Positions 4,785 through 31,068 of a DNA stretch of 32,353 nucleotides are shown here, piece by piece. Within the stretch, counting starts at the first letter, position 1; each line of letters starts with the position of its first letter. The translations under genes and the position numbers were made by a program. The notes under the pieces are model-generated. The model did not search any database, was not told where the DNA came from, and was given only the letters and a program-made list of their open reading frames with translations. This stretch comes from Alphaproteobacteria bacterium. GTDB lineage: Bacteria > Pseudomonadota > Alphaproteobacteria > JAEULF01. The DNA lies in the NCBI GenBank assembly GCA_016793965.1, contig JAEULF010000083.1, forward strand, positions 1 through 32,353, read 5' to 3'.

Positions 4785-6143
4785 TCAGGATGCGTGGCCG
4801 GCGCGCGGCCCGCCGGCAGCCGCAGGCTGGGGCAGGCCGGGTTCGGGCAGGCGGGACTCGGGCAGGCGGCGCAGCAGAGCCAACCCGAGCAGCAGGGAGG
4901 GGATGCCGAGGGCCGCGGTGCCGAGGAAGAACGCTTCGTAGCCGACCTTGTCGACCGCCCAGCCGGACAGCATGCCGAGCGCGCGCCCGGATTCGACGAC
5001 GGCCGCGCTGAGAAGCGCATACTGCGTCGCCGTGTAAGCGGTGCTCGTCAGGCCGGACAGGAAGGCGATCGATGCCACCGATGCCAGGCCGCCGGCCAGG
5101 TTGTCGGCGCTGATTACCACCGCGAGGACGCCGATGTCCGGGCCGGTGCCGGCCAGCCAGACGAACAGCAGGTTGGTCGCAGCCGACAGCAGCGTGCCGA
5201 GCAGCAGCGTCCGCAGGGCGCCCCACCGAGCGACCAGCGCGCCGCCGAGGAAGCCGCCGGCGATCGTCATGGCAAAGCCGTAGAGCTTGGACACGCTGGC
5301 GATCTGCGTGTTGGTGAACTGCAGGTCCTTGTAGAAGGCGATCGCCATGACGCCGAGCACCATGTCGGCCAGACGATAAGTGGCCGCGAACAGCAGCGCG
5401 AGGATGGCGAGCCGCCAGCCGTGCCGCCGGAAGAAGTCGGCGAAGGGCTGCACGACCGACTCGTCGATGATGCGGCCGAAGTCCGGCCGCTCCGCCGGCG
5501 GCGCCGGCGGCGCCTCGGGCGCCAGCAGCACCACGACGGCACCGACCCCCATCGTCGCCGCCATGGCGCAGTAGGCCACCGTCCAGGACGCGAGGTCGGC
5601 CAGGTAGAGAGGGACCGCCCCCGCGACGAGCATCCCCAGCCGGTAGCCGAGCGAATAGGTCGCCGCCGTGGCGCCCTGCATCTCGTCCGGTGCCGATTCG
5701 ATCCGGTAGGCGTCGAGCGCGATGTCCTGGGTCGCCGACGCGAAAGCGACGAAAGCGGCGAACACGGCCATCGAGGCCAGGTCGACCCTGGGGTCCGTCA
5801 GGCCCATGAACACCAGGCCGAGCGCGACAAGGATCTGCGCCAGCAGCATCCAGGAGCGGCGGCGGCCGAGCCAGCGCGTCAGGCTCGGAACCGGCGCCCG
5901 GTCGACGGCGGGCGACCACAGGAACTTCAGCCCGTAAGCGAACGTCACCGCGCTGAAGAATCCGATCGTGGTGCGCGAGACGCCGGCCTCGCGCAGCCAG
6001 GCCGACAGCGTCCCGAAGACCATGAGCAAGGGCAGGCCCGCGGCGAAACCCAGCAACAGCATGCGCAGCACGCGGCGGTCGCAATAGACGACCAGGGCAT
6101 CCTGCCAGCTCTGCCGCACGGCAGGAACCCGCCCAACGCTCAC
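4785..6143 (-). CDS. AmpG-like muropeptide permease (MFS)
   Basis: This 452-residue major facilitator resembles AmpG, the inner-membrane importer of anhydromuropeptides released during peptidoglycan turnover. The N-terminal helix LRMLLLGFAAGLPLLMVFGTL, the loop KFLWSPAVDR and the motif SATQDIALDAYRIES near residue 140 are hallmarks of the AmpG group. At least eleven hydrophobic segments can be counted. The GTG start at 6143 is chosen because it overlaps the stop codon of the upstream kinase gene (GTGA, 6140-6143). An in-frame start at 6239 would run 96 bases into that gene and adds a non-hydrophobic, Arg-rich stretch. No beta-lactamase or ampR gene is nearby, so recycling rather than resistance control is the likely role. 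A related exporter or importer of the PAT family cannot be ruled out. Confidence 0.82.
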   Translation of the reverse strand: MSVGRVPAVRQSWQDALVVYCDRRVLRMLLLGFAAGLPLLMVFGTLSAWLREAGVSRTTIGFFSAVTFAYGLKFLWSPAVDRAPVPSLTRWLGRRRSWMLLAQILVALGLVFMGLTDPRVDLASMAVFAAFVAFASATQDIALDAYRIESAPDEMQGATAATYSLGYRLGMLVAGAVPLYLADLASWTVAYCAMAATMGVGAVVVLLAPEAPPAPPAERPDFGRIIDESVVQPFADFFRRHGWRLAILALLFAATYRLADMVLGVMAIAFYKDLQFTNTQIASVSKLYGFAMTIAGGFLGGALVARWGALRTLLLGTLLSAATNLLFVWLAGTGPDIGVLAVVISADNLAGGLASVASIAFLSGLTSTAYTATQYALLSAAVVESGRALGMLSGWAVDKVGYEAFFLGTAALGIPSLLLGLALLRRLPESRLPEPGLPQPAAAGGPRAGHAS

Positions 6144-7123
6144 GGGACGCCGCGCGCCAACTCGGCCAGGCGCCGCTCGGGCCTGGCACCGAAATGGCCG
6201 ATCACCTCGGCCGCAGCGAGGCTTCCCAGGCGCGCGCATGTCGCCAGGCCCTTGCCCTGCGTGAAACCGTAGAGGAAGCCGGCGGCATAGAGGTCGCCGG
6301 CGCCCGTGGTGTCGACGACGTTGGCGGGCGCCGCGTCGATCACATGCACCTCCTCGCCGGACACCACGACCGAGCCCTTCTCGCTGCGCGTCAGCGCGGC
6401 GGTCGGGCAGTGGCGGCGCACGTGCTGCAGCGCGGCGTCGAAATCCGCCGTCTCGTAAAGCGACGTGATCTCGGCCTCGTTGGCGAACAGCACGTCGACA
6501 TAGCGCTCGACAAGGTCAAGGAACGCGGAACGGTGGCGCGCGACGCAAAAGGGGTCGGACAGAGTCAGCGCCACCTTCCGGCCCGACATCTGCGCGATCT
6601 CCGACGCCTCGCGGAAGGCCTGCTGCGCCTGGGGCGGGTCGAACAGGTAGCCCTCAAGATAGAGGATCTCCGCGCTCTCGATGGCCGCCCGATCGACGTC
6701 GGCGGGGGACAGGCGCACGCAAGCGCCGAGATAGGTCTGCATCGTGCGCTGCGCGTCCGGCGTCACGAAGATCAGGCAGCGCGCGGTCGAGGGCCCGTCG
6801 CTCGCGGCCGGCGTGTCGAAGGTGACCCCGGCGGCGCGGATGTCGTGGCGGAAGATGCGGCCGAGGTCGTCGTCGCGCACCTTGCCGACGAAGCCCGCGC
6901 GGCCGCCGAACGAGGCGACGCCCGCCGCCGTGTTCGCGGCAGAGCCGCCGGAGACCTCGCGGCCCGGGCCCATCGCCGCATACAGGAAGTCCGCCGTGCG
7001 CTCGTCGACCAGGGTCATCGTGCCCTTGGCCAGGTTGTAGCGGTTGAGGAACGCCTCGTCGGCCGTGGAGACCACGTCGACGATCGCGTTGCCGACCGCC
7101 AGAACGTCGAGCGCTGATGACAT
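6140..7123 (-). CDS. PfkB-family kinase, adenosine-kinase-like
   Basis: This 327-residue ribokinase-fold sugar or nucleoside kinase carries the N-terminal PfkB signature GGSAANTAAG at about residue 57. It also has the C-terminal signature DTTGAGD at 271-277, whose last Asp is the expected catalytic base. Overall features such as VDVVSTADEAFL and LYLEGYLFDPP resemble the group annotated as adenosine kinases in alphaproteobacteria, which phosphorylate adenosine to AMP. The precise substrate is not proved by motifs. The ATG at 7123 is preceded by GGGAG and AAGG and begins just before the first beta-strand (LDVLAVGNAIVD). The frame is open much further upstream, but that part is rich in charged low-complexity sequence and is antisense to the next gene. 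It is coupled to the AmpG-like gene by a four-base overlap. Confidence 0.88.
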   Translation of the reverse strand: MSSALDVLAVGNAIVDVVSTADEAFLNRYNLAKGTMTLVDERTADFLYAAMGPGREVSGGSAANTAAGVASFGGRAGFVGKVRDDDLGRIFRHDIRAAGVTFDTPAASDGPSTARCLIFVTPDAQRTMQTYLGACVRLSPADVDRAAIESAEILYLEGYLFDPPQAQQAFREASEIAQMSGRKVALTLSDPFCVARHRSAFLDLVERYVDVLFANEAEITSLYETADFDAALQHVRRHCPTAALTRSEKGSVVVSGEEVHVIDAAPANVVDTTGAGDLYAAGFLYGFTQGKGLATCARLGSLAAAEVIGHFGARPERRLAELARGVP

Positions 7124-10051: not shown

Positions 10052-10582
10052 ATGCCGACTGCAAAGGACGACGCCAGCGCCACATCGGCCGAGCCGGTTG
10101 TCTTCGACGCGACCCTGACGCCTTATCGCAGCCTGACTCCTGCCGGCTTCGCCGTGCTCATGACGGTCCTCGGCGGCTTCAGCGCCGCTTTGGGCGTCCT
10201 GTTCGTCGCTCTCGGCGCTTGGCCTGTGGTGGGCTTTCTCGGACTGGACGTGCTGCTCGTCTACCTGGCCTTCCGTTGGAGCTATCGGACCGCACGTGGA
10301 TTCGAAGCGATACGCCTGACTCCCCAAAGACTGGTCGTGCGCTCCGTCGATCACTGGGGAGACGAGCGGAGGTCCGAGTTCGCGCCCCCGCATTGGTTGC
10401 GTGTCGACGTCGTCGAATCGACAAGACAGGCAGGTGCGTTGATGCTGAGCTCGCACGGGCGCCGCCTTGCGATCGGCCGGTTCCTCACGACTGCGGAGCG
10501 GGGCGACCTGGCCCGGACTCTGCGCGCGGCGCTCGCAAGCCTCGCCGGGCCTGACGACAAGCGCGCGGGCTCGGCGACCTAG
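10052..10582 (+). CDS. DUF2244 membrane protein
   Basis: This 176-residue protein matches the DUF2244 family by architecture. It has a short N-terminal stretch with FDATLTPYRSLTPAGF, two close transmembrane helices at about residues 28-75, and a cytoplasmic domain starting RTARGFEAIRLTPQRLVV and including PPHWLRVDV. Its function is unknown. The family is common in alphaproteobacteria and is often found by nth and dapB, as here. The ATG at 10052 is preferred. The frame is open to 9926, but that would overlap the divergent nth start and adds no family-like sequence. Its stop TAG at 10580-10582 shares the CTAG tetranucleotide 10579-10582 with the stop of convergent dapB. Confidence 0.82.
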   Translation: MPTAKDDASATSAEPVVFDATLTPYRSLTPAGFAVLMTVLGGFSAALGVLFVALGAWPVVGFLGLDVLLVYLAFRWSYRTARGFEAIRLTPQRLVVRSVDHWGDERRSEFAPPHWLRVDVVESTRQAGALMLSSHGRRLAIGRFLTTAERGDLARTLRAALASLAGPDDKRAGSAT

Positions 10583-11409
10583 ACCCCGAGCACGTCCCGC
10601 ATGCCGTAGAGGCCCGGCTTCTGCCCCTGTGCCCACAAGGCCGCGCGGACCGCGCCGCGGGCAAAGACCGTCCGGCTCGACGCCTTGTGGGCGAGCTCGA
10701 CCCGCTCGCCGTCGGCAGCGAAGACCACGGAATGGTCGCCGACCACGTCGCCGCCGCGCAGGGACGCGAAGCCGATGTCGCCGCGCCGGCGCGGCCCCGT
10801 ATGGCCGTCGCGGACCCGCTGGGAGACGCCCTGCAGCGCGACCTGCCGCCCCCTGGCCGCGGCCTCGCCGAGCAGCAGCGCCGTGCCCGATGGCGCATCA
10901 ACCTTGTGGCGATGGTGCATCTCGACGATTTCGATGTCGTAATCGGCGTCCAGCCGCCGCGCCGCTTCCTCGACGAGGACGGCGAGCAGCGTCACGCCCA
11001 GGCTCATGTTGCCAGACTGCACGATCGGTACGTGCTTGGCCGCGCGCTCGACTGCGGCCCGGTGGTCGGGCCCGAGCCCTGTCGTGCCGATGACCAAGGC
11101 CACGCGCGCCTGCGCGGCCAAGCCGGCATGGGCGGCGGAAGCCGCAGGCGTGGTGAAGTCGATGACCGTGTCGCACTGCGTGAACAGCGACACCGGGTCG
11201 TCCTGGACGGTCACCTGCAGCGCCTCGATGCCAGCGAGCGTCCCGAGATCCTTGCCGATCGAGGCGCTGCCGGGAGCGTCGGTCCCGCCCGCCACGCGCG
11301 CGCCCGGGGTCGCCCTCACCTGCGCGATGAGCATCCGGCCCATGCGCCCGCCGCACCCCAGGATGCCGACCCGTGCCTCTACCGCTTTCGAGCCGCCCTG
11401 CGTTGCCAT
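10579..11409 (-). CDS. dapB: 4-Hydroxy-tetrahydrodipicolinate reductase DapB
   Basis: DapB catalyses the NAD(P)H-dependent reduction step of diaminopimelate and lysine synthesis. The 276-residue protein has the nucleotide-binding loop GILGCGGRMGRM at about 15-26, VIDFTTPAA and VIGTTGL. The active-site signature HHRHKVDAPSGT lies at about 165-176, containing the catalytic His and Lys. The C-terminal HKASSRTVFARGAVRAALW is also typical. ATG 11409 is the likely start; ATG 11427 would add six residues. The frame is open much further upstream, but that region is antisense to the 11614-12417 gene and has no DapB features. It supplies the precursor for peptidoglycan cross-links; the DapC-like gene at 22855 may act later in the same pathway. 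Confidence 0.96.
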   Translation of the reverse strand: MATQGGSKAVEARVGILGCGGRMGRMLIAQVRATPGARVAGGTDAPGSASIGKDLGTLAGIEALQVTVQDDPVSLFTQCDTVIDFTTPAASAAHAGLAAQARVALVIGTTGLGPDHRAAVERAAKHVPIVQSGNMSLGVTLLAVLVEEAARRLDADYDIEIVEMHHRHKVDAPSGTALLLGEAAARGRQVALQGVSQRVRDGHTGPRRRGDIGFASLRGGDVVGDHSVVFAADGERVELAHKASSRTVFARGAVRAALWAQGQKPGLYGMRDVLGV

Positions 11410-11526
11410 CGCCGTCCTCGTTCCCATTGATCGAACGGCCCGGACATTAGCGCAGCGGTCGCGGTCCTGGTAGGCCAGCCGCCCGCGGCGACCCTGCGAA
11501 AGCGCTTTGCGGGCGCTGCTCAAGGG

Positions 11527-11542
11527 TGGCATATAGCCGGCG
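11527..11542 (+). promoter_or_regulatory. Candidate sigma-54 promoter upstream of the four-cysteine exported protein
   Basis: TGGCATATAGCCGGCG has a complete -24 element (TGGCATA) and the required GC at the -12 position, with exactly ten bases between GG and GC. The other -12 bases do not match TTGC. Transcription would start near 11553, about 60 bases before the ATG. A weak sigma-70 alternative overlaps it: TTGCGG at 11507-11512 and CATATA at 11530-11535, with a 17-base spacer. Both are pattern matches only. Confidence 0.35.
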
Positions 11543-11613
11543 CGTGGTGATCGGCCGCACAAGCGCCCGTCCGCGCGAATCCCGTCCTTCGTTCTTGCCT
11601 TGGAGATCCGCGC

Positions 11614-12417
11614 ATGACGCGAAAGACCTCCGTCTCTGCCGCCGTTGCCATGGCACTCGCGGCTATCCTCCTCAGCGACCCGGCCGCCGCGCAGTTCCAG
11701 CCGCAGGGTCCCGCACAGGGACAGCCGCAGGGCCAGAAGTCGCCGCAGGGCCAGGCGCCGGCGCCCAAGGCGCAGCAGCCTGCCCAGCCCCCAGCGCAGT
11801 CGCCCCAGCAGAACGAGTTCTTCATGCAGTACCTCAAGAGCCAGGGTCACAAGGACCTGCTCCAGAAGGTACTGCGCGAGGCTGAGGCGACGCGCCGCGG
11901 CACCTGCAACGCGATCACCGTCAAGCAAGGCGGCCCGGTGGACTCGATCGGCTTGCACGTGCCGACGCCAGGCTTGCCGCCGACCGCAGGGCGCTGGCGC
12001 GAGCGTTGGACGATCGATCGCTGCGGCAAGGAGGTCACCCACAACATCTGGTTCGAGTCCCGCCCGGACCAGAGCCCGCCGATGTTCATTTCGTTGCTGC
12101 CTGGATCGACGCGCACCTCCGGGGTGCCGGTTCAGCTGCAGGAAGGCTTCGCGCGCATGGCCATGCACAAGGCTGTGGTCAGCGTGCCGAACTGCAAGGA
12201 AGGCGTGCTGTTGAACACCGAGATGGGCCGCGAGCTGCGCCAATCGGCCGTGAAAGGCGCGCCGGCTGAGCAGTGGGACGAGACGTGGGAGGTCCGCGCC
12301 TGCAGCGCCATCAAGAAGGTGCGGATGATCTTCGAGATTGTCCCGCCGAAGCCCGGAGCCACGGGCCCGGATGCAACCCAGGCGCGATTCGTGGCAAAGG
12401 CCGACACCGTGAAGTGA
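11614..12417 (+). CDS. Exported four-cysteine protein of unknown function
   Basis: I do not recognise a family. The 267-residue protein has a clear signal peptide (basic start, hydrophobic core AAVAMALAAILL) with probable cleavage after Ala26. A Gln/Pro-rich linker with repeated QGQ/PQG units spans about 27-67. The folded domain from about 68 to 267 holds four cysteines, at 98, 137, 194 and 230, and the motifs RWRERWTIDRCGKEVTHNIWF and EQWDETWEVRACSAIKKVRM. Two disulfide bonds in the periplasm are likely. The spacing of W-x-V/I-x-x-C in the second and fourth segments suggests an internal repeat. TTGGAGATC lies upstream of the ATG. It is followed after only four bases by the ProXp-ala-like gene, so the two may form an operon despite unrelated roles. 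Confidence 0.8.
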   Translation: MTRKTSVSAAVAMALAAILLSDPAAAQFQPQGPAQGQPQGQKSPQGQAPAPKAQQPAQPPAQSPQQNEFFMQYLKSQGHKDLLQKVLREAEATRRGTCNAITVKQGGPVDSIGLHVPTPGLPPTAGRWRERWTIDRCGKEVTHNIWFESRPDQSPPMFISLLPGSTRTSGVPVQLQEGFARMAMHKAVVSVPNCKEGVLLNTEMGRELRQSAVKGAPAEQWDETWEVRACSAIKKVRMIFEIVPPKPGATGPDATQARFVAKADTVK

Positions 12418-12421
12418 TGCG

Positions 12422-12910
12422 ATGCCGTTGACGCCTGACGAGCTTCTCGCTCGACTCGATTCGCTGGGGATCGCGCACAGCACGGTCAGCCATCCGCCCG
12501 TCTTCACGGTCGAGGAGGCCAAGCGACTGCGCGGCACGCTGCCAGGATCGCACGTCAAGAACCTCTTCTTGCGCGACAAGAAGAAGGCGATGTGGCTCCT
12601 GACCGCGCTCGAGGACGCCCAAATCGACCTGCGCAGCCTGGAAGCCAAGCTCGGGTCGTCGCGCCTGTCCTTCGGCAGCGCGGACCGGCTGATGGAGTTC
12701 CTCGGCGTGATCCCTGGCGCGGTAACGCCCTTCGCTGCAGTCAACGACGCCGGCGGGCAGGTCACGGTAGTCCTGCAGCGGACGCTGCTCGACATCGCGC
12801 CGATCAATTGCCACCCGCTGACCAACGACCGGACGACGGCGTTGGCCCCCGGGGACTTGGTTGCGTTCTTGCGGTCCACGGGGCACGATCCGCGCCTGAT
12901 CGACCTCTAG
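12422..12910 (+). CDS. ProXp-ala-like aminoacyl-tRNA deacylase (YbaK fold)
   Basis: This 162-residue single-domain protein belongs to the prolyl-tRNA synthetase associated (YbaK/ProX) family. Members act in trans to hydrolyse Ala wrongly attached to tRNA-Pro. Typical features are HPPVFTVEEA at about residues 23-32, the Lys-containing segment GSHVKNLFLRDKKKAMWLL, LSFGSADRLMEFLGVIPGAVTPFA and the C-terminal INCHPLTNDRTTAL. The combination GVIPGAVTPFA with CHPLTND matches the ProXp-ala subgroup better than YbaK, which edits Cys-tRNA-Pro. It begins four bases after the preceding stop and precedes cnoX by 131 bases in which I see no feature. Confidence 0.87.
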   Translation: MPLTPDELLARLDSLGIAHSTVSHPPVFTVEEAKRLRGTLPGSHVKNLFLRDKKKAMWLLTALEDAQIDLRSLEAKLGSSRLSFGSADRLMEFLGVIPGAVTPFAAVNDAGGQVTVVLQRTLLDIAPINCHPLTNDRTTALAPGDLVAFLRSTGHDPRLIDL

Positions 12911-19688: not shown

Positions 19689-22600
19689 TCAGTCCGCCGC
19701 ATAGGTGTCGCCGGGGCCGCCCATGCTCGCGCCGAGGACCTCGCGCTTGCCGGCATGGTTGGCTTTGCTGACGATGCCATGCTGCTCCATCAGCTCGATC
19801 ATCCGCGCGGCGCGATTGTAGCCGATCTGCAAATGCCGCTGGATGAAGCTCGTCGAAGCCTTGCGCTCGCGCATGACGAGGGCCACGGCCTGGTTGTAGA
19901 GCTCGTCCTCGCCGCCGCCGCCGGGCTCGTCCGCCGGCATCGCCGACTCGGGCTCGTCGGTCAGGCCCTCGATGTAGTCAGGCGTCGCCTGCGCCTTCAG
20001 GTGCGCAACCACGCGATCGACCTCCTGGTCGCTGACGAAGGGGCCGTGCACGCGCGTGATGCGCCCGCCGCCGACCATGTAGAGCATGTCGCCCTGGCCG
20101 AGCAGCTGCTCGGCACCTTGCTCGCCGAGGATCGTCCGGCTGTCGATCTTAGAGGTCACCTGGAAGCTGATGCGCGTCGGGAAGTTCGCCTTGATCGTGC
20201 CCGTGATGACGTCGACCGACGGGCGCTGGGTGGCCATGATCAGGTGGATGCCGGCCGCGCGCGCCATCTGGGCCAGCCGCTGGATGGCCGCCTCGATATC
20301 CTTGCCTGCCACCAACATGAGGTCCGCCATCTCGTCCACGACGATGACGATGAACGGCAGCGGGTCGAGCGGCAGCGGTTGCTCCTCCATGACCGGGCGG
20401 CCGGTCTCCGGATCGAAACCCGTCTGCACGCGGCGCGTCAGGAGCTCGCCGGCGGCTCGTGCCTCTGCGATCCGCGCGTTGTAGCTGTCGATGTTGCGGA
20501 CGCCGAGGACCGACATCAGCCGGTAGCGATCCTCCATCTCCCGCACGGCCCATTTCAGCGCCACGATGGCCTTGCCAGGCTCGGTGACGACGGGCGAGAG
20601 CAGATGGGGGATGTCGTTGTAGACCGACAGCTCCAGCATCTTCGGATCGATCATGATGAAGCGGCAGCGCTCCGGCGGCAGGCGCTGCAGCAGCGACAGG
20701 ATCATGGCGTTGACCGCGACCGATTTGCCTGAGCCCGTGGTTCCGGCGACGAGCAGGTGGGGCATCCGCGCGAGGTCGGCGAACACCGGCGCTCCGCCGA
20801 TGTCCTTGCCGAGCGCCAGCGGCAGCCTGATTCCCGGATCGGCATAGTCTCGGTGCGAGAGAAGAGCGCGCAGGCTCACGGTCTCGCGCTTCGGGTTCGG
20901 CAGCTCGATGCCGATGACGTTGCGGCCGGGCACGACGGCGATGCGGACAGAGACGGCGCTCATGCTACGCGCGATATCGTCTGCCAGCGAGATGACGCGC
21001 GACGACTTCGTGCCCGGCGCGGGCTCCAGCTCGTAGAGGGTCACGACGGGGCCGGGCCGCACCTTCACGATCTCCCCGCGCACGCCGAAATCCTGGAGCA
21101 CGGCGACCAAGGCGCGCGAGCGCTCGGCCAGCGACTCGACGGACTGCTGGGGCACCTGCGCGTTGACCGTCGGTTCAGAGAGCATCGACAGGGGCGGTAG
21201 CACGAAGCGGCCACGATTGGCCGGCCGCGCGGCAGACATAGCATCTGAGTAGCGGGTCTCTGTCAGCGTCGTCCCCCCCGCGCGCGTTGGCGCCGGCGCG
21301 CTACCAGGCCCCGGCTTGACGGGCTCGGCTGCCTTGCTCGGCCGCTCTGTAGCAGGCAGCGGCGCGGCCGCCATCGCAAGCGTGCCGGCGATCATCGCGT
21401 CCAGTGCGCTATGGTCGGGAGATGCCGATACCGGCAGCGGAGTCTCAACCTTCTCGGGGACCCTCTCTGAAGCTCTCTCCCGTGCCGCTACAAGATGAGC
21501 CCCAGGGCTTGGGATCGTGATATCGTCGCTGCTCGGGTCCGCGTCGGCCGCATCGTACAGGGGCTCGCTCGTATCACGCGCGGCGGTAGCGTGGCGGTGC
21601 GGGATGCCGCCATCCAGGTCAAACTCTGCAGGGTCATGCGGCCGAGCGGGGCCGATGGCATCGCCCGAGCGCGCAGGCGAGTCCGCCGGCGCTGTATCGC
21701 GCACGTCACGCTCGGCGGAGCCCCGGAAAATGGGCTCCTGGCGGTCAACGGGGTCAGCCAGGTCTGCGCCGGAGTCAAAGGGCTGCGGCTCCGTGCCAAG
21801 CCAGGCGCTCAAGCGGGCGACGATGCGGGGCGAACCAGACGGACCATCGACGCCGCTCGCGTCCGGCGCCGCGGCGGGTTCGGCGCGCGGCTCGGCGGCC
21901 GCACGCGCGGCTGGGGCGGGATCGAAGGGCTGGAGCGGAAGCGACCGGTCGAACGTGGCCCAGTCGACGGCCGGGCGTTCGGGTTCAGCAAGGCCGGGAC
22001 CGAGATCCCGGATGTCGAGCGGTTGCTGTTCGCCGGCCTCGACCGGCGCCGCTGGACGCTCCCGCGCCCAGCCGAGATCGCTGGCGAGACGGCTCGCGCC
22101 GTCCATGGCGCTGGCCGCAGCGATTCTCGCCGCGCTGCTCCCGACGCCAAGTCCGCGCGCGCCGGCGACTTTGGCGCCTGCGGCAGCCCACCCGAGCGCT
22201 CGAGCGACGGCCCTGGCGGCGGCGGCGACTTCGGCTCGCGATACCTCGAGCGTGTAGAGCGCCAGAGCGGCAGCTCCGATCCCCGCGATGGCTCCGGTGG
22301 CCGGCGGGCCGAAAGGCCCGAAGAGAGCGCTCGTCAACCCGCTGAAATGGCCGACCATCAGGAGCCCCACTGCACCGCCGAGTCCGCTCTGGAGCGGCCA
22401 GCTGGGAGGTGCGCCGAGGGGCGCGAGCATTGCCGACGAAAGGAGGACCGCTGCCAGGAAGGCCGCCAGGCGAAGCGACCAACTGGAGAGCCTGCCGCGG
22501 CTCATCATGCGCCAGCCCCATGCAACGAGCCCCAGCCCGAGCGCGACGGCAGCGATTCCCAGGCTTTGGAGCAGCAAGTCGCTCGCGAATGCACCGGTCC

Positions 22601-22826
22601 GGCCGAGCAGGTTCGTCGCTGGAGCATCGGCCGCCCGATTGAAGGACGGATCGGCTGGGTTGTAGGTCATCAGCGCGAGGACGATGGCGCCGCCCGCGAG
22701 GGCGCAGCCGAGGCCGATGGCCTCGATCACGCGCCGGCGCAGGAACGCTCCGAGACCGCTCGGGAACAGCGACGACACGAGCGAGCCGTCGCGGGAAGCG
22801 GAAGCGGGCGAGGTCTGTCGTCTCAT
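19689..22826 (-). CDS. ftsK: DNA translocase FtsK
   Basis: FtsK sits at the division septum and pumps chromosome termini so that dimers can be resolved and daughter chromosomes cleared. The 1045-residue protein has about five N-terminal membrane segments (residues about 25-175). A long Ala/Pro/acidic linker reaches about residue 560, and the motor domain follows. Walker A is GTTGSGKS with Lys near 701. Walker B is [13 protein letters not shown] near 825. The C-terminal gamma winged helix ([38 protein letters not shown], about 975-1040) would read the KOPS orientation signals. ATG 22826 gives an N terminus like other alphaproteobacterial FtsKs. The frame is open upstream only as a shadow of the aminotransferase gene, which ends 28 bases before it. 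Confidence 0.96.
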
Positions 22827-22854
22827 GGGCACGGTCCCGGTTGGCGAGCTGGCG

Positions 22855-24054
22855 TCAGAGAAGAGCGGCGACGCGCGCGAGGGCGTCGGCCGTGACTTGG
22901 GGCGGATGGACGAGCGCGGCGCGGATGTAGCGATGGCCGGGATTGGCGGCTCCGGTGCCCCGCGCCATGTACGCGCCCGGCATGACGCGAATGCCGCCGT
23001 CGCGCCACAGGCGCTGGGCGACCGCCTCGCCATCGCCGACGTCCAGCCATAGGTAGAATCCGCCGCCCGGCGCGCGCCAGCCGCGACTGCCGAAGTGCCG
23101 CTCGGCAGCACGGAAGTTTTCCCGGTAAGCGGCGCGATAGGTTTCGACATGCTCTTCGTCGGACCACAACGCGGTCGCCGCCGCGAGGAGCGGCAGAGGC
23201 GTGGGGACGCCCGCGCTGCCGACGAGTCGCGCGAAGGCGCTCACGAGCTCCGGATCGCCGGCCATGAAGCCAGACCGCAAGCCCGGCGCGCTCGAGCGCT
23301 TTGACAGGCTGTGGAAGACCACCACGTTGTCGAGCCAGCCGCCGCGCGGTCCCGGTCCGACTGCCAGGGCGGCTCCGAGTCCGCCTGGCGGCGGGGCACC
23401 GGTATAGACCTCTGAGTAGCATTCGTCGAAGGCGACGACGAAATCGTGCTTCCGCGCCAATCGGATCAGCTCAGAGAGGTAGTCGGTCGGTGCAATCGTG
23501 CCCTGCGGATTGGCCGGAGAGCACAAGAAGAACACCGCGATGCGATCAAGTAGGTCGGGCTTGATCGCGTCGAGAGCGGGGAGGAATCCACCGGTGGCTT
23601 CGGCCGAGAGGAACACGGCTTCGGCGCCGGCGATGTTCGCGGCCGTCTCATAGACATGGTAAAAGGGGTTCGGCATCGCGATCACGGGCCGCTTTCCAGC
23701 TTTGGCCTCGGGGCATGCGGCGAGGCCAAGCATGAAGAGTCCTTCGCGAGTGCCGCTGCACGGGACGACGCTCCGCTCGGGGTCGAGCGCATCGATTGGC
23801 AAACTGAATCTCTTGCTCAGCCACGAGGCCGCGGCCGCGCGGAATTCCGGGGTGCCGGTGTTCGGCGGATACTTGTTCCAGAGATGCGCATGGGCTGAGA
23901 CGACCGACGCGATCGCCGGCGGCGGCGCAAACTGCGGCTCGCCGATGGTGAGGTTCACCCTGTCCGCGCGCACAGGCTCGATGCCGGCGAGCAAGTCCGC
24001 TAGGCGCTTGAACGGATAGGCGCTGAGGCTGTCGATCCGGGGATTGAGATGCAT
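22855..24054 (-). CDS. PLP-dependent aminotransferase, DapC-like
   Basis: This 399-residue class I/II aminotransferase has the N-terminal segment [12 protein letters not shown], the substrate loop [13 protein letters not shown], the phosphate-binding [10 protein letters not shown], and [12 protein letters not shown]. It also has the cofactor Asp in FDECYSEVY and the Schiff-base Lys252 in [15 protein letters not shown]. The combination resembles proteins annotated as succinyldiaminopimelate transaminase (DapC), which would place it in the same pathway as dapB. Substrate is not proved, and a general aspartate- or methionine-type transaminase is possible. ATG 24054 is preferred because the conserved region starts with [12 protein letters not shown]. 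It is followed by ftsK on the same strand, so the two may be co-transcribed from the palindrome-containing spacer at 24055-24331. Confidence 0.82.
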
Positions 24055-24167: not shown

Positions 24168-24331
24168 AAACACTTGTCAGCGGCGACCGCAACCCATCTG
24201 AGGACGGCCGTATCCGGCATGCCCGCGACACTGGAAACGGGGCATGGATCAGCGTATGAGGGACGCCGGCAGCTCACCTCGTGGTCATTGATGACCGGAA
24301 CGAACGGCAGCCATCCCGCTCAGGAGGTCCC

Positions 24332-25024
24332 GTGCGATCATTCAGCCGACTCGCTTTGCCCATGGCGCTGTCCGTCGTTCTCGGCGCCGGCGCAACAGAC
24401 GCCATCGCCGGGGCCAAGCTGGCCAATCCGCCGGCGCGCACCCAGATCGCCGCGGTCGCCGCAGTCGCGCTGACTGAGGATGACCGGGCGGAGATCCGTC
24501 GGATCGAGCGGTACTTCAACGCGCTGCGCTCGATCCGCGCGCGCTTCGTGCAGATCTCCGACACCGGCCGCTATGCGGAGGGCAAGCTGTTCTTCGTACG
24601 GCCGGACAAGCTGCGCTTCGAGTACGAGCCGCCGGTGAAGCTGCTCGTCGTCGCCAATGGCGGCTGGATCACGCAGTACGACGGCGACATGAAGCAGGCG
24701 AACCGCTTCCCGATCATCAACACGCCGCTGCAGTTCCTGACCAAGCAGCAGATCTCGTTCACCTCCGAAGTCACCATCACCGCGCTCGAGCGCTCAGCGG
24801 GGGTCATCCGGATCGAAGTGGTCGAGACCAAGGATCCGTCCACGGGACGCCTGACCCTGACCTTCTCGCGCGAGCCCATGGAATTGCGCAAATGGACGGT
24901 GGTCGACCAGCAGGGCACGACTGTCAACGTAGCGCTCTTCAACGCCGAGATGAATGCTGAGATCAACCCCGAGCTGTTCATATACCGCGATCCTTCGGGC
25001 GGCGATCCGGGCAAGGGCAATTGA
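24332..25024 (+). CDS. lolA: Outer-membrane lipoprotein carrier LolA-like protein
   Basis: LolA is the periplasmic shuttle that carries lipoproteins from the inner to the outer membrane. The 230-residue product has a signal peptide (SFSRLALPMALSVVLGAGATDA). It is followed by LolA-type features: IERYFNALRSIRARFVQIS, AEGKLFFVRPDKLRFEYEPP, LLVVANGGWITQYD and LTLTFSREPMELRKWTVVDQQG. The start is a GTG at 24332 with a perfect AGGAGG four bases upstream, giving a classic signal peptide. A GTG at 24281 would add a hydrophilic stretch in front of the signal. Its place beside ftsK and xthA is a common alphaproteobacterial order. Confidence 0.9.
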   Translation: MRSFSRLALPMALSVVLGAGATDAIAGAKLANPPARTQIAAVAAVALTEDDRAEIRRIERYFNALRSIRARFVQISDTGRYAEGKLFFVRPDKLRFEYEPPVKLLVVANGGWITQYDGDMKQANRFPIINTPLQFLTKQQISFTSEVTITALERSAGVIRIEVVETKDPSTGRLTLTFSREPMELRKWTVVDQQGTTVNVALFNAEMNAEINPELFIYRDPSGGDPGKGN

Positions 25025-27270: not shown

Positions 27271-27987
27271 TCACACCACCAGCCGGTAGCCGCCGGCCTC
27301 GGTCACCAGGATCTCGGCCCGGGCGGGATCCGACTCGATCTTCTGCCTGAGCCGGTAGACGTGGGTCTCCAGCGTGTGCGTGGTCACGGCCGGGTTGTAG
27401 CCCCAGACCTCGTTCAGCAGCACGTCGCGCCCGACCGGCTTCTCGCCGGCGCGGTAGAGGTACTTGAGGATCGACGTCTCCTTCTCGGTCAGGCGAACCT
27501 TCTTCTGCGAGCGCCGGTCGAGCAGCAGCTTGCCGCTCGGGCGGAAGAGATAGGGACCGATCGCGAAGGTCGCGTCCTCGCTCTGCTCGTGCTGGCGGAG
27601 CTGGGCGCGCAAGCGCGCGAGCAGCACGTTCAGCCGGAACGGCTTGGCGACGTAGTCGTTGGCGCCGGCGTCCAGCCCGAGGATCTGGTCGGCGTCGGTG
27701 TCCGCGGCGGTCAGCATGATGATCGGGCACTTGGCGCCGCTGCGCCGCATCAATCGGCAGAGCTCGCGACCGTCCATGTCGGGCAGGCCGACATCGAGGA
27801 GGATGACGTCGAAGAGGTCGGACTTCACCGCGTCCAGCGCGCGCGGGGCGGAGGGGGCCTCGGCAACGGCGAATTCCTGGTGCAGCTCGAGCTGCTCGGC
27901 CAAGGTCTGGCGCAGCGAGTCGTCGTCATCGACGATGAGGACACGCTTGCGCTGGCTGCGCCCCTCGCTTGCCGTCGCTTCGCTCAC
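27271..27987 (-). CDS. OmpR-family response regulator, possibly CenR-like
   Basis: This 238-residue two-component regulator has a receiver domain with the acidic pair in VLIVDDDDSL, phospho-acceptor Asp65 in LLDVGLPD and Lys115 in DYVAKPF. The OmpR-type winged helix includes KVRLTEKETSILKYLYRAGEKPV, LNEVWGYN and TTHTLETHVYRLRQKIE. The DNA-binding part strongly resembles a well-conserved alphaproteobacterial group that includes CenR, a cell-envelope regulator in Caulobacter; this is recollection, not a search result. No kinase gene is next to it. GTG 27987 is chosen because it lies just before the conserved start; an ATG at 28188 would add 67 residues unlike a receiver domain. Confidence 0.88.
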   Translation of the reverse strand: MSEATASEGRSQRKRVLIVDDDDSLRQTLAEQLELHQEFAVAEAPSAPRALDAVKSDLFDVILLDVGLPDMDGRELCRLMRRSGAKCPIIMLTAADTDADQILGLDAGANDYVAKPFRLNVLLARLRAQLRQHEQSEDATFAIGPYLFRPSGKLLLDRRSQKKVRLTEKETSILKYLYRAGEKPVGRDVLLNEVWGYNPAVTTHTLETHVYRLRQKIESDPARAEILVTEAGGYRLVV

Positions 27988-28436
27988 GCATGGCCCCGCT
28001 TCTGAGGTGCCGCGGCACGGGAATCCGCAGGGGGCGAGGATGGCACCGTGTCCCGGGCCGATCAACCGCGATGGGGGCCGGGACAAGAGCCCTGGCTGGG
28101 GAAGAGAGGCCGGAGCGCTCCCGTGGTTCGAGGCCAGGTCACGACGACGGGATCGAGCGCGGCATGGCAGCGTCGCCCGGCCTGACATGACGCGGACGGG
28201 CGGCGGATGCGATCGCGGCAGGTCTCCCTCGGCAAATTTTTACCATGGCGGTGGTAACCTACATGCATGAGTCGGGGAGCCGTCTGGCACTCCTCGGAGA
28301 ATCAAGATGTTGCCAGGCATGCTCAAGGACGGCGACAAGGCACGATTCCTGCATCGCCGACCATCTCGTCGTCGCGCATCGTCTGCCTCTTGCTCGCGAG
28401 CGGGAGGACGGTGCTGGGCAGCAAGGGTCCCGCCGC
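27988..28436. promoter_or_regulatory. Divergent spacer between response regulator and unknown gene
   Basis: These 449 bases separate two divergent genes. A plus-strand frame stays open from 28245, but its third codon positions are only about two-thirds G/C, well below the genes around it, so it is treated as non-coding leader. An A/T-rich patch near 28234-28260 contains the palindrome at 28240-28257. I see no RNA gene. Confidence 0.55.
28240..28257. repeat. Operator-like palindrome TTACCA-N6-TGGTAA
   Basis: TTACCATGGCGGTGGTAA has perfect 6-bp arms and lies in an A/T-rich patch of the divergent spacer. It is about 250 bases from the regulator start and 180 bases from the unknown gene. The symmetry and location suggest a binding site for a dimeric regulator. 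Confidence 0.4.
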
Positions 28437-29744
28437 ATGGCCGATACGAGCGCCAGCTTCCCGCCGACGCCCTTGATCCCGAAGGCCGCCATGACGGCGC
28501 CCGGCAAGCCTGCGGCGGCGCTCCGCGCGCCGCTATCGGCCGAGACTTCATGCGCCGGTGCGAAAAGCGAGTGCATCGTCAGTCCCGAACCGGACGCATC
28601 GACGTTCTTCAGTCATGGCGGTCCGTCTTTCGGCGACATTCTCGACCTGATCAATCCGCTGCAGCACTTGCCGATCGTCTCCTCGATCTACCGTTCGATC
28701 ACGGGCGACAAGATCGGCGACGGACCGCGGGTGATCGGCGGGTTTCTCTGGGGTGGGCCGCTTGGGCTGTTCTCGGCCACGGCTGATCTCGCGGTCGAGA
28801 AGGACTCCGGCCGGGACATGATGGGCACGCTGGTGGCGGCCGTGTCCGGCGAGCCGATTGGACGGAAAGGGTCACCGGTGGAGAGCGGCTCTGCGACACG
28901 AGCGGTCGCGCAGTCCAGCGATCCCATGCTGGCACGGGCGGCGACCAGCAGCAACGCGCAGATCGCTCAAGCGGGCAGCCAAGCGCCGTGGATCGATGAG
29001 TCGCGCCTCGCGGCGGCGATCGAGCAGGCGCGGTTGAACCAGACAGACCTCGATGCGGCCATGCTGGATGCGCGCAGCTTCGGGCCTCCGGTGTGGCGCG
29101 AGCCGGCCCAACCTCGATCGGTTGGCGTCGAGAGGAGCGTCGGAGGCCGAGCTGCGACGACCCCGGAACCATCGGTCAAGCCGATCAAGGATGCGGAGGA
29201 ATCACGCGCTCCGCAGCAGCCAGTCGCTCGCGGGGCTGCGGTGGACGCTGCCTCGGCCTCGACCCTGCCTCCCGGCGCTATTGCGCGCCGGGCGCCGAAT
29301 CCCTCCGGCTCGAACTACGTCTCGGCTCCCTTCCACTTCGATTCGCGCCTCAATGGATCATCGCCTAGCGCACGGCGCGCGGCGTCGCCCTATGCCACGC
29401 CAAGCGCCGGTCCGGCGACGCCGCCGCCGGCGGCCGCGCGCGCCGGCGGCGGACTCCTCGCGCCGGACACCGCGCGCGCGATGATGGCGGCGCCAGCAGC
29501 AGCCGCAAGGCCGACCGCTGGGTCATCGGCTGGGCCGACCGCCGGGTCACAAGGCGCCGCGCCGAGGGTTCTGCCTGGCCTGCCCGCCGGAGCCCCGCCA
29601 ACGGGCACCCCAGGAGCTTCCGTGTCCGGAACCGGGGCGTCCGGGGGACCTGCGCCGGCGTTCCTCGACGCCATGCGCGCCGGCCTCGACAAGTACGGCC
29701 GAGCCGCCAAGGCATCCAGGGGCGCTGCGCCGGCACCGGAATGA
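28437..29744 (+). CDS. Protein of unknown function with a conserved FGDILDLINPLQHLP segment
   Basis: I cannot assign a function. The 435-residue protein has one compact region, residues about 65-125, starting FGDILDLINPLQHLPIVSSI and continuing YRSITGDKIGDGPRVIGGFLWGGPLGLFSA. This looks like a conserved alphaproteobacterial domain of unknown role, with Gly-rich, weakly hydrophobic character that might insert in or lie on a membrane. The rest is Ala/Pro/Ser/Gly-rich and probably disordered. A short segment near the end (PAFLDAMRAGLDKYGRAAKA) could be an amphipathic helix. There is no signal peptide. ATG 28437 is preferred on codon grounds. The stop overlaps the start of the L,D-transpeptidase gene (ATGA, 29741-29744), suggesting coupled synthesis and perhaps a role in wall remodelling. 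Confidence 0.75.
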   Translation: MADTSASFPPTPLIPKAAMTAPGKPAAALRAPLSAETSCAGAKSECIVSPEPDASTFFSHGGPSFGDILDLINPLQHLPIVSSIYRSITGDKIGDGPRVIGGFLWGGPLGLFSATADLAVEKDSGRDMMGTLVAAVSGEPIGRKGSPVESGSATRAVAQSSDPMLARAATSSNAQIAQAGSQAPWIDESRLAAAIEQARLNQTDLDAAMLDARSFGPPVWREPAQPRSVGVERSVGGRAATTPEPSVKPIKDAEESRAPQQPVARGAAVDAASASTLPPGAIARRAPNPSGSNYVSAPFHFDSRLNGSSPSARRAASPYATPSAGPATPPPAAARAGGGLLAPDTARAMMAAPAAAARPTAGSSAGPTAGSQGAAPRVLPGLPAGAPPTGTPGASVSGTGASGGPAPAFLDAMRAGLDKYGRAAKASRGAAPAPE

Positions 29745-30337
29745 CGGGGCAGCCGGACCGTGCGGCGCAGCTCGCTGCTCGCGCCGGCGCGGCGGGCACA
29801 GAGCTCGGCCCGCTCGGCCGATCGGGTTCCGCAGTCGATCTCCTCGTGGACGCGCGATCGGGCTTTGCGACCTGGCCAGGGCATCGATGCCGGTGCGCCA
29901 TCGGGCGCAGCGGCGCTGCCGCGGGGAAGTCGGAAGGTGACGGCGCGTCGCCGGTCGGTCGTTGGCCGGTGCGCCGCGTGCTCTTCCGTCCTGACCGCGT
30001 CGCGATGCCGAGGACGGGCCTTCCGGTCTCGGCGATTCGCCCGACCGATGGCTGGTGCGACGCGCCGGAGCACGCGCTCTACAACCGCCAGGTCACGCTG
30101 CCATTCGCGGCGAGCCACGAACGGCTCTGGCGCGAGGACCGGGTCTATGACGTGCTCGCGGTCCTCGGCCACAACGACGATCCGACGATCAAGGGTGCCG
30201 GCAGCGCGATCTTCCTGCACGTCGCGACGGCGGATTGGAGCGGAACCGCGGGCTGCGTCGCTCTCTCCCTCGACGATCTCCTGGCGGTTCTCGCCGCGAT
30301 GGACCCCGGCAGCGGCGTGACGATCGCGCCACGCTGA
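29741..30337 (+). CDS. L,D-transpeptidase (YkuD-type) family protein
   Basis: This 198-residue protein has the YkuD catalytic region with His160 in AIFLHVATADW and the nucleophile Cys172 in GTAGCVALS. It also has VYDVLAVLGHNDDP and the N-terminal KSEGDGASPVGRWPVRRVLF. It belongs to the COG3786-like short group. L,D-transpeptidases make 3-3 peptidoglycan cross-links or attach proteins to the wall. No signal peptide or membrane segment is visible, so either it is exported in an unrecognised way or it works in the cytoplasm. Its ATG overlaps the stop of the upstream unknown gene. It converges on the yggS gene with a 20-base gap. Confidence 0.88.
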   Translation: MTGQPDRAAQLAARAGAAGTELGPLGRSGSAVDLLVDARSGFATWPGHRCRCAIGRSGAAAGKSEGDGASPVGRWPVRRVLFRPDRVAMPRTGLPVSAIRPTDGWCDAPEHALYNRQVTLPFAASHERLWREDRVYDVLAVLGHNDDPTIKGAGSAIFLHVATADWSGTAGCVALSLDDLLAVLAAMDPGSGVTIAPR

Positions 30338-30357: not shown

Positions 30358-31068
30358 TCACTGCGCCGGCGGGACAGGTCCTGCCTCTTGCGCCCCGGCA
30401 CGACCGCCGAAGATCGCGCTGCCCACCCGCACCTCCGTCGCTCCCAGGCGGACAGCCGCCTCGAAATCGTCGCTCATGCCCATGCTCAGCCGGCCGAGGC
30501 CCGATTCGCGCCCGAGCTCGCGCAGCAGCGCGAAATGGGGGATCGGGTCGACATCGACGGGCGGTATGCACATCAACCCGACGACCGGCAAGCCGAGCGC
30601 ATCGACGCAGTGACGCACGAAGGCGACCGCGTCCGCCGGAGCGATGCCGCTCTTCTGCGGCTCCAGCCCGGTGTTCACCTGCACATAGAGCGCGGGAAGC
30701 GAGGGCGATGACGACCGCAGCCCGGCCAGCGCTGCGGCGAGCTTGGGCCGATCGAGCGTGTGGATCACGTCGAAGAGCTCCAAGGCCAGTTTGACCTTGT
30801 TCGACTGGAGAGGCCCGATGAGATGAAGACGGAGGTCCGGGTGCCGCTGCCGCAGCGATGGGTACTTGGCCTGCGCTTCCTGGACGCGGTTCTCGCCGAA
30901 GACGAGCTGTCCGGCGCCGAGTGCCGCCTCGACGGCAGCGGCGCCGTGGGTCTTGGCGACGGCGACGATCGCGACGTCCGCGGGCGACCTCCCGGCGTCA
31001 CGCGCTGCTGCCGCGACGCGTGCGCGCACGGTCCGAATCCGATCGGCGATGCCCGAGTCCTCTCCCAT
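30358..31068 (-). CDS. yggS: YggS/PLPBP-family pyridoxal phosphate homeostasis protein
   Basis: This 236-residue alanine-racemase-fold protein binds pyridoxal 5'-phosphate without catalysing a known reaction and helps balance vitamin B6 and amino-acid pools. The cofactor Lys39 lies in VAIVAVAKTH. Further signatures are FGENRVQEAQAKY, HLIGPLQSNKVKLAL, YVQVNTGLEPQKSGI and the phosphate-binding end RLSMGMSDDFEAAVRLGATEVRVGSAIFG. The ATG at 31068 gives the normal length. The promoter should lie between it and the porin terminator at 31137. Confidence 0.95.
   Translation of the reverse strand: MGEDSGIADRIRTVRARVAAAARDAGRSPADVAIVAVAKTHGAAAVEAALGAGQLVFGENRVQEAQAKYPSLRQRHPDLRLHLIGPLQSNKVKLALELFDVIHTLDRPKLAAALAGLRSSSPSLPALYVQVNTGLEPQKSGIAPADAVAFVRHCVDALGLPVVGLMCIPPVDVDPIPHFALLRELGRESGLGRLSMGMSDDFEAAVRLGATEVRVGSAIFGGRAGAQEAGPVPPAQ

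Follow-up and report, generated by a model that had tools for sequence, protein, structure and literature searches.

The locus

The window analysed here, a stretch of 32,353 nucleotides (C143:1-32353) from an alphaproteobacterial assembly of 4.28 Mb that is 75% complete, carries two genes that share four nucleotides. The first (28437-29744, forward strand) is an open reading frame for a protein of 435 residues, P0001, without a match in Pfam or NCBIfam. The second (29741-30337, forward strand) encodes P0002, a YkuD-domain protein of 198 residues that has no evident signal peptide and looks L,D-carboxypeptidase-like by fold and motif. As the original prediction had read from this DNA, the stop codon of the former overlaps the start codon of the latter in an ATGA (29741-29744, forward strand).

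The pair is flanked by two members of a conserved block. A divergent gene for an OmpR/PhoB-type response regulator (27271-28188, reverse strand), whose annotated start is probably too far upstream, lies on one side, and a convergent yggS (Ala_racemase_N; 30358-31068, reverse strand) on the other. The latter, which is functionally unrelated and not known to play a part in the wall, served as synteny control. The CenR box, TGA-N8-TGA (PMC9275681), is absent from both strands between 28006 and 28437.

An undescribed alphaproteobacterial protein family

The conserved stretch of P0001 spans about residues 58-140 (28608-28856, forward strand), an approximately 80-residue core in which the alignment of homologues reads F.D.LD.INPLQH.P.VS.YR..TGD.I, followed by a glycine-zipper helix. 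The compact segment that had been proposed as conserved, FGDILDLINPLQHLP, is present at residues 65-79 and its conservation in the class is far above chance. Among 56 aligned homologues, D70, N73, P74, L75, Q76, H77, P79, Y85, G101, G107, G110 and G125 are invariant, which makes the family easy to test. The zipper itself, G102-xxx-G106-xxx-G110 (28737-28766, forward strand), falls within a helix predicted at residues 95-124.

In the AF2 model of P0001 (mean pLDDT 60.1, pTM 0.30), helices are predicted at residues 65-71, 80-89, 95-124, 128-137, 188-212 and 406-428, with disorder between them. The remainder of the protein had been described as disordered, which holds for most of it (pLDDT about 42-60) but misses both the predicted helix 188-212 and a conserved C-terminal helix, residues 406-428 (29652-29720, forward strand; alignment and AF2 model), whose pLDDT reaches about 88-91 at mid-helix and which houses the second of the conserved motifs, here MRAGLDKY. 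Some lineages have a different C-terminus: at loci L027, L078 and L086 the core is joined to a LEINRLLRAHA-type C-terminal helix and precedes a DUF3576 gene and leuS, not ykuD, and the same type of helix is found in the core copies of L030 and L040. The idea that the glycine-zipper helix spans the membrane is unsupported, its median KD being 1.41, below that of a usual span, with only 13 of 81 copies over 1.6; the delta-G parameters of this check did not come from a tool.

Searches of Pfam, NCBIfam, PHROGs, PDB sequences and PDB folds yielded no match of meaningful E-value for the core protein, the single Foldseek match of its model against the PDB (E 8.7) being meaningless; the phages searched gave none either. 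The literature searches gave no text match for INPLQHIP, and none of the papers listed was seen to describe the family. The core is present in 25 of 58 class genomes, that of the window counted, and profile A1 detects it in 153 of 385, i.e., in about 40% of the sampled class genomes, where it has no name. In named genomes, at least 587 pattern matches were obtained, of which at least 557 were confirmed; the best 80 of the latter constitute the named loci L026-L105, the majority of which bear a Rhodospirillales or Alphaproteobacteria label. Altogether, the core family is real, widespread in the Alphaproteobacteria and, within the reach of these searches, undescribed.

Some members stand apart. 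Locus L028 bears a Mesoflavibacter label and is probably a misnamed assembly, and L060 (5851-6270) holds a short form of 139 residues directly after apparent ATP synthase genes. Eleven Azospirillum plasmid records match the core; Azospirillum plasmids (L136:4899-5504 and L137:4896-5504) carry a second core-family gene, annotated as hypothetical, which overlaps fliI by 4 bp in a lateral flagellar cluster.

A YkuD protein with no evident signal peptide

P0002 matches YkuD (PF03734) with E=3.1e-12 and 47.7 bits against a cut-off of 23.4, and this is its sole domain over the Pfam cut-off. Its catalytic stretch, HVATADWSGTAGC, runs from H160 to C172 (30218-30256, forward strand), both residues being invariant among homologues. 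The active site reads GC[VI]A in all 46 sequences (P0002 and 45 homologues), so that the second position after the cysteine is always alanine, where canonical transpeptidases have arginine or asparagine. In 39 of these 46 proteins, 35 residues or fewer precede the first conserved motif, too little space for a signal peptide; the N-terminus of P0002 is not hydrophobic and no signal peptide is evident in it. Furthermore, the spacing H160-V-X10-C172 is shorter than that of the L,D-transpeptidase motif, H(S/G/D)X14-19C (PMC4599014), which P0002 does not contain.

The AF2 model of P0002 has a pLDDT of 90.2. By fold alignment its best matches are the L,D-carboxypeptidases Csd6 (Z 12.9, rmsd 2.6, 122 aligned) and Pgp2 (12.8/12.6), followed by the carboxypeptidase Bd1075 (11.8) and YkuD (11.6); transpeptidases score 11.6 at most, about 1 Z below the carboxypeptidases. 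Foldseek places transpeptidases first, with E about 2e-3. When the P0002-family profile was compared with PDB sequences, only Pgp2 entries were retrieved, weakly (E 0.004) and over two short stretches. Pgp2 shares EGDxxTPxG and TxGCxAL with P0002. Nevertheless, P0002 ends at the YkuD domain, without the C-terminal NTF2-like domain that Csd6 and Pgp2 possess together with a longer His-Cys spacing, and Pgp2 acts in the periplasm (PMC4599014, PMC8038945), unlike what is proposed here for P0002.

A further likeness, drawn from its description, is with ElsL, the cytoplasmic L,D-carboxypeptidase of Acinetobacter baumannii (PMC8649774), which is also a signal-less YkuD-domain protein of less than 200 residues with a catalytic cysteine, and whose host genomes mostly lack LdcA. 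P0002, with 198 residues, lies within the 105-200 range of this class and is likewise without a signal peptide or a PG-binding domain. Reported ElsL orthologues, in contrast, belong mainly to gamma- and betaproteobacteria (PMC8649774). LDT_Go, a 1,3-transpeptidase of Alpha- and Betaproteobacteria (PMC10864386), is also a YkuD-type enzyme of the class, but it is a lipoprotein that needs export and forms a separate group, and identity of P0002 with it was rejected on that account.

Canonical 3-3 transpeptidases were not detected in the source genome at its 75% completeness. The only other YkuD gene found there (C20:5078-5485) has DpaA (8ikr) as its sole PDB match.

Distribution of P0002 and LdcA

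LdcA (Peptidase S66, PF02016) is an unrelated serine peptidase that carries out the same reaction as that proposed for P0002, and was found in 80 of 385 class genomes. Its distribution and that of the P0002-type YkuD mutually avoid each other: 16 genomes have both, 197 only the YkuD, 64 only S66 and 108 neither (p=6e-13). With one genome per family, a step beyond which phylogeny was left uncorrected, the figures are 5, 66, 25 and 42 (p=2e-5), a distribution in keeping with the absence of LdcA that accompanies ElsL; by size class, p is 0.012 below 2.5 Mb and 0.056 above. S66 was not found in the window's own genome (75% complete assembly).

The same contig carries a gene for the muropeptide permease AmpG (4785-6239, reverse strand; TIGR00901, E=1.7e-149 at 4884-6086), and this would supply the import needed by a cytosolic L,D-carboxypeptidase. 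As a companion of the P0002-type YkuD, AmpG is non-discriminating, being present in 37 of 51 genomes with the enzyme and 10 of 13 without it. Mpl, which usually consumes the tripeptide product, was rejected as a companion too: it is over the cut-off in none of the 385 class genomes, a difference from the ElsL case. Further envelope genes on the contig are dapB, ftsK and lolA (10579-12879, 19689-23150, 24281-25024).

Taken together, the lack of a signal peptide, the unmatched transpeptidase motif, the alanine two positions after the cysteine, the fold and the avoidance of LdcA suggest that P0002 is probably no cross-linker, contrary to the L,D-transpeptidase that had been read into this gene. 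That it is a cytosolic L,D-carboxypeptidase is a reading to which we give about even weight, on the basis of signal-peptide lack, motif, fold and LdcA distribution.

Conservation of the core-ykuD pair

The neighbour tabulation that the original prediction had suggested does reveal a recurrent link. In 45 of the 80 named loci (best 80 of at least 557 matches), the core is followed on its own strand by a P0002 homologue. In 35 of these 45 the gap is between -4 and 60 bp, and exactly -4 in five, which is compatible with a single transcript. Of the 35 loci without a downstream YkuD, 26 extend for 900 bp or more beyond the core, so that the gene is truly absent there.

Across the 385 genomes, 121 have core and YkuD, 32 the core alone, 92 YkuD alone and 140 neither; the two genes are adjacent in 75 of the 105 genomes in which both have coordinates, a count that leaves out 16 further genomes with both where one coordinate was unlisted. 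With one genome per family (138), the corresponding numbers are 40, 13, 31 and 54 (Fisher p=1e-5), a test that treats genomes as independent and a subset that lowers, without removing, shared ancestry. In the 29 genomes of at least 2.5 Mb, 16 have both, three the core alone, four YkuD alone and six neither (p=0.03), and in the 29 smaller ones the figures are three, three, eight and 15 (p=0.65).

When the core is present without an adjacent YkuD (27 genomes), a YkuD gene is found elsewhere in nine and nowhere in 18; the latter include several Magnetospirillum and Telmatospirillum, and several of them keep the C-terminal motif. This motif occurs in 34 of 45 YkuD-adjacent loci versus one of those nine and five of those 18, a pattern composed after the sequences had been inspected. 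Both the co-occurrence and the bias of the motif are open to explanation by shared ancestry. At locus L083, core and YkuD stand together at a different genomic place.

The yggS and ribA2 controls

In 34 families that have core, YkuD and YggS, the pair YkuD-YggS is near in 28, core-YkuD in 25 and core-YggS in 25. YkuD and YggS are together without the core in five of these families, core and YkuD without YggS in two, core and YggS without YkuD in two, and all three are apart in two. In turn, YkuD is near YggS in eight of 15 genomes that have YkuD only, and the core is near YggS in six of 11 that have the core only.

Upstream of the core, a GTP cyclohydrolase II gene, which we call ribA2 (PF00925, E about 1e-57), was found in 47 of the 80 loci (best 80 of at least 557). 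RibA2 was separated from RibBA at a break in the E-values, with 8.8e-56 still included and 1.7e-52 excluded; many genomes also have a second PF00925 match of RibBA strength. The RibA2 paralogue is a member of the block at L074 (4375-5691) and at 52 other named loci, and its zinc cysteines are intact in all 53. Of 20 core loci that have no YkuD next to them, 17 show ribA2 before the core, 15 of them closely and two at about 2 kb. In 22 families with the three genes, the order RibA2-core is found in 20 and core-YkuD in 16, and where the core is absent RibA2 directly precedes YkuD in seven of eight families. YkuD is therefore as tightly linked to yggS as to the core, and the core has a closer link with ribA2 than with YkuD. 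Both controls illustrate that an overlapping start codon and a conserved neighbourhood can overstate functional partnership.

These orders (20/22, 16/22 and, without the core, 7/8) suggest that the ancestral operon read ribA2-core-ykuD and that its pieces were lost independently. ribA2 has been lost from the window: the single PF00925 match of its genome, at C224, is of RibBA-like strength (E=1.4e-37). Our literature searches found nothing joining a GTP cyclohydrolase II and a transpeptidase in a gene cluster of Alphaproteobacteria.

Possible functions of the locus

The explanation that we prefer, though tentatively and at somewhat less than even confidence, is that an old operon of the Alphaproteobacteria, ribA2-core-ykuD, survives here in shortened form, minus ribA2, between the divergent response regulator and the convergent yggS. 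P0002 would stay in the cytoplasm and, in the role of LdcA, remove the terminal D-Ala of tetrapeptides from muropeptides imported by AmpG. The core protein would travel independently on the shared transcript as an adaptor that associates with itself: its glycine-zipper helix may pack on other copies or on a membrane surface, and its long disordered linker would carry a C-terminal helix that docks on a target. That the core protein has no obligate partnership with the YkuD enzyme seems probable; that it self-associates and docks, which is suggested by its predicted anatomy, is rather doubtful. Against this explanation stand the narrow fold margin over transpeptidases and their first rank in Foldseek, the lack of Mpl in the class sample, an AmpG distribution that does not follow the enzyme, the tetrapeptide accumulation published for Caulobacter and Agrobacterium, a zipper helix that makes no clear membrane span and, for an independent core, its co-occurrence with YkuD beyond chance.

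The original prediction of a partner, scaffold or regulator of wall cross-linking retains the recurrent YkuD link and loses ground elsewhere: yggS is near YkuD in 28 of 34 families versus 25 of 34 for the core, ribA2 is the tighter neighbour, the two genes occur separately, and the enzyme is probably no cross-linker. A core protein that binds the YkuD enzyme and regulates or positions it would explain the shared transcript with its short gaps, the adjacency in 75 of 105 genomes, the family-level co-occurrence (p=1e-5), the C-terminal motif in 34 of 45 YkuD-adjacent loci versus six of 27 others, and a pair that stays joined at L083. Nevertheless, we consider it unlikely: the yggS control is equal or stronger, Magnetospirillum-type genomes keep both conserved pieces of the core without such a YkuD, YkuD stands alone in 92 of 385 genomes, and the motif pattern was written post hoc, the sequences having been seen. 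That the core works instead with the second, GTP cyclohydrolase II-like enzyme RibA2, YkuD being no more than a follower, is improbable as well. It would fit the place of RibA2 before the core (20 of 22 three-gene families; 17 of the 20 core loci that lack a neighbouring YkuD) and its zinc cysteines kept in 53 of 53, but 12 of 34 core and YkuD families, that of the window included, are without RibA2 by the cut used, only one of four core-only families having RibA2 shows adjacency, and intergenic distances of about 100-200 bp point to a separate promoter.

The chances are slim that P0002 is an ordinary L,D-transpeptidase that reaches the periplasm through an unrecognised export route. Its YkuD domain is over the Pfam cut-off, its histidine and cysteine are conserved and transpeptidases are close in fold score; against this stand N-termini that leave no space for a signal peptide (39 of 46 proteins), with none evident in P0002, the His-Cys spacing below H(S/G/D)X14-19C (PMC4599014) and the alanine found in 46 of 46. 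Very unlikely, finally, is a core family that serves an export apparatus or membrane ATPase, the window copy being a relative of a flagellar accessory protein. fliJ usually follows fliI, and the Azospirillum plasmid gene (201-202 residues) that overlaps fliI sits where fliJ often does; the L060 copy, in addition, follows apparent ATP synthase genes. Nevertheless, no flagellar genes lie near the core in the 20 G loci scanned, and FliI-type matches, probably F-ATPase relatives, came from just two of the best 80 named loci, L060 and L090, so that a general flagellar role is unsupported by the neighbourhood scan of both sets.

A broader reading, which we regard as quite improbable, would make of ribA2-core-ykuD an unrecognised module, in which a cytosolic YkuD L,D-carboxypeptidase replaced LdcA in most of the class and the glycine-zipper adaptor would gather the enzyme, with or without RibA2, at the site of muropeptide entry.

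Many Alphaproteobacteria are devoid of LdcA, and a signal-less YkuD group that mirrors this absence constitutes a direct candidate for assay. Tetrapeptides accumulate in Caulobacter and Agrobacterium, neither of which has LdcA, and recent papers argue against an LdcA substitute there (PMC13046382, PMC9790009). Some members of the class would thus be without such an L,D-carboxypeptidase activity, and the candidate concerns the class elsewhere. In Agrobacterium, two YkuD proteins without a signal peptide have been described (PMC11527210).
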